Shown here piece by piece: positions 14,814-16,097 of a stretch of DNA of 64,000 nucleotides (position 1 is the stretch's first letter; every line of letters begins with the position of its first letter). The notes beneath the pieces were generated by a model. That model was given only the letters and a program-made list of their open reading frames with translations, ran no database searches and was not told the DNA's origin. Source of the DNA: Fimbriimonadaceae bacterium (lineage in GTDB: Bacteria; Armatimonadota; Fimbriimonadia; Fimbriimonadales; Fimbriimonadaceae); assembly GCA_019187105.1 (NCBI GenBank), contig JABAQM010000001.1, positions 2,944,734-3,008,733 on the forward strand, read 5' to 3'. A program made the position numbers and the translations under genes.

Positions 14814-14865
14814 GGTAGGGTGCAGAAATATTGGTTTCGATTCGAGGTGACGCAACATTAACCGA

Positions 14866-15552
14866 ATGCGACGCCCTCCCGTCCGAGAGGAGGGTCCTCC
14901 AGTCAACGAGCGAGTTCTCCGCTACCGCGATGTCCGAGTCATCGGCTCTGAAGGCGAGCAGTTAGGAATACTCCAAAGCCGCCAAGCCCTTCAAATCGCT
15001 CGAGATCAAGGCCTCGATCTTGTCATGGTCGCGCCGACGGCGCAGCCCCCGGTTTGCAAGATCATCGACCACGGCAAGTATAAGTATCAGCAGGAAAAGC
15101 TTAACAAAGAAAACAAAAAGGTCAAGCAGGATGTCAAGGGCATCAAGCTGCGGCCCGGTACCGCCGAACACGATCTCAAGGTTCTCATGCGAAACGCCAT
15201 GAAGTTCCTGGAGGAAGGCCACAAGGTTAAGGTGACCTGTCAGTTTCGCGCTCGCGAAGTGACCCACCCGGAGTTCGGCTACCAGAAGATGAACAAGCTG
15301 GCGGAAGAGCTATCCCCGTACAGCATCGTGGAAAAGGCACCCTCACTGGAGGGTAAACTCATGACAATGATCTTGCTTCCCAAAGCGGGATCGCCAAAGA
15401 AGAAAGATGCCAAAGATCAAGACCAACAAAACGGCAGCGAAAAGGTTCAAGGTCACGGGAAGCGGGAAGATCACGCGCCGGAAGTCGAACAACAATCACA
15501 TGTTCTTCCACAAGAGCGCGAGCCAGAAGCGTCGACTGGAACAGGAACCTGA
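14866..15552 (+). CDS. infC: Translation initiation factor IF-3 with tail overprinted on rpmI
   Basis: IF-3 N-domain ([35 protein letters not shown]) and C-domain ([34 protein letters not shown]) are complete. IF-3 binds the 30S subunit, keeps it apart from 50S and checks the initiator tRNA. Typical IF-3 is about 170-180 residues and ends just after the segment equivalent to ILLPK. Here no stop follows. The frame continues for 47 more residues, rich in Gln, Glu, Lys and Pro, all encoded within the rpmI gene in another frame (15407-15552). The ATG start at 14866 is not the rare AUU/AUC start that autoregulates infC in enterobacteria, and no SD is close to it. It is the first gene of infC-rpmI-rplT. 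Confidence 0.93.
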
Positions 15553-15601
15553 GCTGTTTAAAGGCGAGAAGAAGCGCGTTCGGCGCATGCTCGTCATCTA
15601 G
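15407..15601 (+). CDS. rpmI: 50S ribosomal protein L35
   Basis: L35 of 64 residues, the normal length, beginning [20 protein letters not shown] and ending in the basic KRVRRMLVI. Its start lies inside infC, after a purine-rich AAAGAAGAAAG that can act as SD. The first 146 of its 195 bases also encode the infC tail in a different frame. Its own frame is the conserved one, so the constraint on L35 shapes the tail of IF-3. Confidence 0.95.
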
Positions 15602-15693: not shown

Positions 15694-16041
15694 ATGGCAA
15701 GAATCAAACGTGGCTTGATGCGCCACAAGCGGCACAAGAAGACAGTCGAACGTGCCTCCGGTTATTTCGGCCGCAAGAAGAACGTCTTCAAGCGCGCCCA
15801 CGAGCAGGTCATGAAGTCGGGGCAATATGCCTTTCGTGACCGCCGGGCCAAGAAACGAGAGTTTCGCCGACAGTGGATCGTTCGAATTACTGCGGCTTGT
15901 GAAGCCTGCGGCATCAAGTACAACCAGCTCATCCACGGCATGACCGAGAAGGGCATGCAGGTTAACCGAAAGATGCTGAGCGAGCTCGCGATCCATGATA
16001 TGGATGCGTTCAAGGATCTCGCCAAGCAAGCCACGGCCTAA
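15694..16041 (+). CDS. rplT: 50S ribosomal protein L20
   Basis: L20 of 115 residues: MARIKRGLMRHKRHKKTVER, GYFGRKKNVFKRA, FRRQWIVRITAAC and a helical C-terminus. L20 binds 23S rRNA early in 50S assembly and in several bacteria also represses its own operon by binding the mRNA leader. A strong SD (GAGGAG, five bases before ATG) precedes it. The 92 bases between rpmI and rplT contain a small hairpin (GTCGCC-TACC-GGCGAC, 15628-15643), which is too simple to call an L20 site. Confidence 0.97.
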   Translation: MARIKRGLMRHKRHKKTVERASGYFGRKKNVFKRAHEQVMKSGQYAFRDRRAKKREFRRQWIVRITAACEACGIKYNQLIHGMTEKGMQVNRKMLSELAIHDMDAFKDLAKQATA

Positions 16042-16057
16042 GACGGTTTCACCAAGG

Positions 16058-16097
16058 AGCGGCCGCGCGCTAGTTCAGCGTGCGGCCGCTTCTTATT
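16058..16097 (+). terminator. Rho-independent terminator of the infC operon
   Basis: AGCGGCCGC (16058-16066) pairs with GCGGCCGCT (16082-16090) and is followed by TCTTATT. It lies 17 bases after the rplT stop. Confidence 0.85.

Follow-up and report, generated by a model that had tools for sequence, protein, structure and literature searches.

The gene for IF3 (infC) was found to end inside the following gene, rpmI, which encodes ribosomal protein L35, in nearly all Fimbriimonadia, a class of Armatimonadota, and the codons used within the overlap point to a C-terminal IF3 tail that is probably translated and selected for its composition. In the window, that is, the whole stretch of 64,000 nucleotides analyzed here, the infC frame is open on the forward strand from 14851 to a TGA at 15550-15552. 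This stop lies 146 nt inside rpmI, confirming the original prediction of two open frames over the same 146 bases, and 47-48 IF3 residues come from rpmI DNA read out of frame. The features of the locus are as follows, with their evidence in parentheses.

14844..14849, forward strand: Shine-Dalgarno sequence GAGGTG of infC (sequence; the motif precedes the start of infC in almost every class member)
14857..15552, forward strand: infC, IF3 of 231 aa, probable AUU start at 14857, TGA at 15550-15552 (sequence, Pfam, start comparison)
15382..15549, forward strand: IF3 C-terminal tail, 56 aa after the last beta strand, predicted disordered (alignment, AlphaFold2)
15407..15601, forward strand: rpmI, ribosomal protein L35, 64 aa, in the infC frame +1 (Ribosomal_L35p, E = 3.5e-21)
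15407..15552, forward strand: two-frame region of 146 nt, encoding IF3 tail and the N-terminal three quarters of L35 (frames, relatives, codon shuffling)
15407..15441, forward strand: minimal overlap, open in all 44 overlapping genera; the earliest stop in the class ends at +35 (class comparison)
15446..15448, forward strand: L35 Phe14 codon, TTC here; TTT would end the overlap (class comparison)
15694..16041, forward strand: rplT, ribosomal protein L20, the next gene of the operon (Pfam, frames)

The infC product contains IF3_N (PF05198, E = 1.2e-27) and IF3_C (PF00707, E = 1.7e-29) in Pfam, and PF00707 matched only once in the 3.3-Mb genome, indicating that infC is the sole IF3 gene. The operon order infC-rpmI-rplT is present, as usual for IF3 genes. 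Just 3' of rplT, a GC-rich inverted repeat and then a T-rich stretch at 16050-16095 are likely the operon terminator. The segment 15387-15406 holds almost no rpmI Shine-Dalgarno sequence in the family of the window, and a full GGAGG in family f3. The start of infC is probably the ATT (AUU) at 14857 and not the AUG at 14866, because relatives show ATA, ATT or ATC at the corresponding place with the same Shine-Dalgarno sequence, here lying 7 nt upstream. The product would then have 231 aa; the 228-residue IF-3 proposed earlier keeps its end at the TGA and loses its AUG start to the likelier AUU. Among 98 genomes of the class, ATA (63), ATT (21) and ATC (7) starts were observed behind GAGGTG-like Shine-Dalgarno sequences, where the scan takes the best-scoring start and a few may be misplaced. 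An AUU start with autoregulation is noted for E. coli infC (Sacerdot et al. 1996, listed in PMC2268962), and S. aureus infC starts with AUA (PMC13009471). By analogy with E. coli, the conserved Shine-Dalgarno sequence and AUA, AUU or AUC start suggest self-regulation of IF3 through start-codon discrimination. The non-AUG start is thus a new instance of an already known rule.

Here, the IF3 frame does not end at the C-terminal domain (about 180 aa). AlphaFold2, run with a 44-sequence alignment, predicted a normal IF3 fold, and pLDDT stayed below 50 across almost the whole of residues 182-231. When the class was pooled, the part of the tail upstream of rpmI was basic (35% Lys/Arg), and the part overlapping rpmI was acidic (25% Asp/Glu, 9% Lys/Arg). 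The infC frame past its stop was basic, with 136 aromatic or Cys residues among 3571. The earlier description of the tail as Gln/Glu/Lys-rich therefore holds in part; the overlapping portion is rich in Gln, Glu and Asp, and Lys is abundant only just before the overlap. Tail length after the last conserved Pro ranged from 17 to 86 residues (median 37). IF3 tails were also found in other members of the phylum, so that having a tail or not varies among IF3 proteins and does not define them. The tail sequence shows little conservation and thus gives no sign of a specific contact. We take a flexible tail, under weak constraint on sequence and strong constraint on composition, as the best reading.

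Loci from family, order and phylum searches were all measured by one script. Comparing infC length in relatives, as the original prediction had proposed, placed the infC stop inside rpmI in 96 of the 98 Fimbriimonadia genomes with both genes, always in one phase, with both frames conserved at a similar place. The overlap extended over 35-176 nt, with 35 nt in 3 genomes, 44 nt in 29, 86 or 89 nt in 19, 134 nt in 16 and other lengths in the rest, and it exceeded 60 nt in 61 of the 96. None of 35 Armatimonadota from outside the class that carry both genes at this locus had the overlap, the gaps being 14-334 nt. A single origin of the overlap, in the ancestor of Fimbriimonadia, is therefore most likely. 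The tail is accordingly not a novelty of this genome, as had been supposed, and is class-wide and ancestral; its overprinting on the older L35 frame was borne out. The two class members that lack the overlap, L080 and L090, stop infC 32 and 51 nt before rpmI. Their L35 genes contain stop-making codons, at codon 4 (CTT AAG) and codon 6 (ACT AGC), indicating that the constraint lapses once the overlap is gone. The tails of these two are still acidic, 55 and 29 aa long and encoded before rpmI, and these two cases favour a need at the protein level.

Each infC-frame codon takes its first base from the third position of one L35 codon and its other two bases from the start of the next. Thus, TTT at Phe14 before AAG gives TAA in the infC frame and usually ends the overlap at 44 nt, whereas TTC gives CAA and the frame continues. 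Phe14 was TTT in 31 of 96 genomes, the expected rate (25-27), and synonymous codon shuffling of the window genome gave an infC opening of at least 146 nt with P = 0.13. Therefore, the exact overlap length carries no signal, and any excess over about 44 nt appears due to chance. A particular meaning of the 146 nt was not upheld, as the stop position wanders across the class.

The beginning of the overlap behaved differently under the same shuffling. No stop occurred in the first 32 nt of rpmI (before +35) in any of 44 genera, compared to 17.8 expected. At L35 codons 2, 4, 6 and 7, a third-place T before AA or AG would stop infC; such a T was seen 0 times in the class against about 49 expected, and 23 times in non-overlapping relatives against about 16 expected. 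By parsimony, third-base changes to T made up 2 of 112 in L35 codons 2-13, both at codon 11 and both creating the observed +35 stop, compared to 46 of 152 in L20 codons 2-13. That T is generally disfavoured close to the start of genes was rejected as an explanation, since T was observed 147 times in L20 codons 2-13 (126 expected) and 40 times in non-overlapping relatives (43 expected). Stop avoidance as the sole cause was rejected as well, because L35 codons 9, 10 and 13 also lack T, though T there would give Cys or Phe and create no stop.

The absence of T at these three codons led us to test the residues one by one. Synonymous codons were shuffled within each genome, for all genomes and for one per genus; shuffling within genomes addresses confounding by GC content and codon usage between open and closed genomes, and sampling one per genus, together with parsimony, lessens the effect of kinship among related genomes without removing it. 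With one genome per genus, Tyr, Trp, Phe and Cys together occurred 0 times in the open infC frame against 36.7 expected, the minimum in 2000 null shufflings being 20. In the same sample, Asp/Glu was raised (283 vs 219 expected) and Arg lowered (39 vs 78 expected); Leu/Ile/Met was also low (27 vs 64 expected). The controls showed no such depletion of Tyr, Trp, Phe and Cys, with 35 vs 34.8 expected in the third frame, 59 vs 64.6 expected past the infC stop, and none in non-overlapping relatives. At L35 codons 15-26, Tyr and Trp were 0 vs 34 and 0 vs 16 expected where the infC frame was open, compared to 11 vs 17 and 15 vs 11 expected where infC had already ended. A T yielding Ser in the open frame was tolerated (14 vs 21.3 expected), whereas a T yielding Cys, Phe, Tyr or Trp never occurred, indicating that the bias tracks the amino acid and not the base. 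Such a dependence on residue and open frame is as expected if the IF3 tail is made, and we infer from it that the tail is translated in the cell.

Selection thus acts in both frames of the shared DNA, L35 being conserved and the IF3-frame residues departing from the codon-shuffle null. The proposal that the two frames constrain each other was supported in that third-base choice in L35 follows the IF3 frame while it is open. Within L35 codons 2-13, purines are generally favoured and Ser-type control sites are almost absent; residue-level selection is less certain there, and a nucleotide-level cause near the rpmI start is possible for these codons only. L35 residue 7 (15425-15427) is Asn, Ser or His in the class, compared to mostly Arg in outside relatives, which may be a price that the L35 protein pays for the second frame.

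We consider it fairly probable, judging from these comparisons, that the stop was lost ancestrally and that the tail has since been translated, selected for composition and given a protein-level role on the 30S. In the class ancestor, loss of the infC stop codon would have caused read-through into rpmI in one fixed phase, and translation of the resulting C-terminal tail would have continued from then on. Selection would maintain the first part of the tail, which comprises about 17 residues past the IF3 fold and reaches L35 codon 11. Farther on, the stop would fall where a synonymous L35 codon makes one, most often TTT at Phe14, and any open stretch would be held disordered, acidic and without aromatics and cysteine by selection. 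As the most likely role, the flexible tail, basic and then acidic, may tune how the C-terminal domain of IF3 seats on and leaves the 30S.

The main rival to a protein-level role, which we regard as unlikely though not negligible, is ribosome traffic. If a ribosome stopped within about 32 nt of the rpmI start, it would cover the initiation site of that gene, so that infC must end either ahead of rpmI or no less than about one footprint beyond the start, and the tail would be a tolerated soluble by-product. The earliest stop, at +35, would place the P-site of the terminating ribosome about 29 nt beyond the rpmI AUG, corresponding to one footprint; L080, L090 and 35 other relatives end infC about 14 nt or more before rpmI, and infC/rpmI overlaps of 1-4 nt are absent from the sample. 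However, other bacterial operons often have short overlaps of a stop with the next start. Moreover, traffic alone explains neither the avoidance of Cys and Phe at L35 codons 9, 10 and 13 nor the amino-acid-dependent bias far beyond +35.

Translational coupling, put forward in the original prediction, is less probable again; in this reading, only ribosomes that translate infC make the start of rpmI accessible. Coupling accords with the weak rpmI Shine-Dalgarno sequence, at -3.6 kcal/mol in the window (-8.4 for rplT) and a median of -4.3 kcal/mol in the family of the window (-7.2 for rplT). However, family f3 has the overlap too, yet its rpmI Shine-Dalgarno sequence is strong (-11.6), and coupling would need neither a frame open for at least 35 nt nor selection on residues. 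Termination 146 nt downstream is also too far for ordinary re-initiation. RNAalifold on 30 genera gave no RNA structure conserved around the start of rpmI, and the locus had no Rfam match. Neutral read-on, meaning a single stop loss after which L35 sequence and codon usage happened to leave the frame open, appears very improbable. The length beyond about 44 nt does fit synonymous chance, and neutral processes can in general account for how phase-1 overlaps arise and how long they are (PMC3887535), but the missing early stops and missing aromatic and Cys residues, with clean controls, strongly disfavour it. Most long co-directional overlaps in genome annotations turn out to be errors (PMC2478687), yet a sequencing or annotation artefact (missed stop or wrong frame), including the single-base error near 15400 that the original prediction had allowed for, is excluded by the single phase in 96 separately assembled genomes. 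Inspection by eye revealed no conserved slip site for a programmed +1 frameshift from infC to rpmI, and rpmI has its own start codon in all genomes.

Text searches found no description of an infC/rpmI overlap of this kind among the papers covered. A survey of 338 genomes with 968 prokaryotic overlaps longer than 60 bp recognized no real co-directional one, the longest real case being holD/rimI of Enterobacteria at 32-56 bp (PMC2478687). Like holD/rimI, infC/rpmI is a real co-directional overlap of a 3' end into a 5' end with lineage-specific length; it differs in reaching 35-176 nt over a whole class, with selection measured on the overprinted residues. In Thermus rnpA/rpmH, as reported by Feltens et al. 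2003 (cited in PMC9841429), a small ribosomal-protein gene likewise overlaps another essential gene in a different frame of the same strand and extends its partner, but L34 is fully nested, the starts adjoin and share one Shine-Dalgarno sequence, and the N-terminus of RnpA is extended. In the window the starts lie apart, at 14857 for infC and 15407 for rpmI. Myxococcus Dsg has a C-terminal tail. Dsg is similar as an IF3-like protein (Cheng et al. 1994, listed in PMC2268962), as is mitochondrial IF3, an IF3 core with flexible terminal extensions, at least one of which is needed for function in yeast (PMC6321546). Unlike these extensions, the infC tail is coded by rpmI DNA, and the likeness comes without any sequence relation seen.

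In a single class, 61 genomes carry overlaps longer than 60 nt; both genes belong to the translation machinery, and there is direct evolutionary evidence of amino-acid-level selection on a second reading of shared DNA. Translation of such a tail, with selection keeping it harmless or useful, would be unusual among long overlaps of bacterial genes on the same strand. The naturally varying stop position supplies built-in controls, the same codons with the frame open or closed, making dual coding measurable. Annotation rules that trim long overlaps would remove a real IF3 tail. We propose, tentatively and at somewhat less than an even chance, that the overprinted tail is now a working part of translation initiation in the class, its length set by synonymous codons of L35. 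If this is true, codon choice in L35 tunes the IF3 protein.
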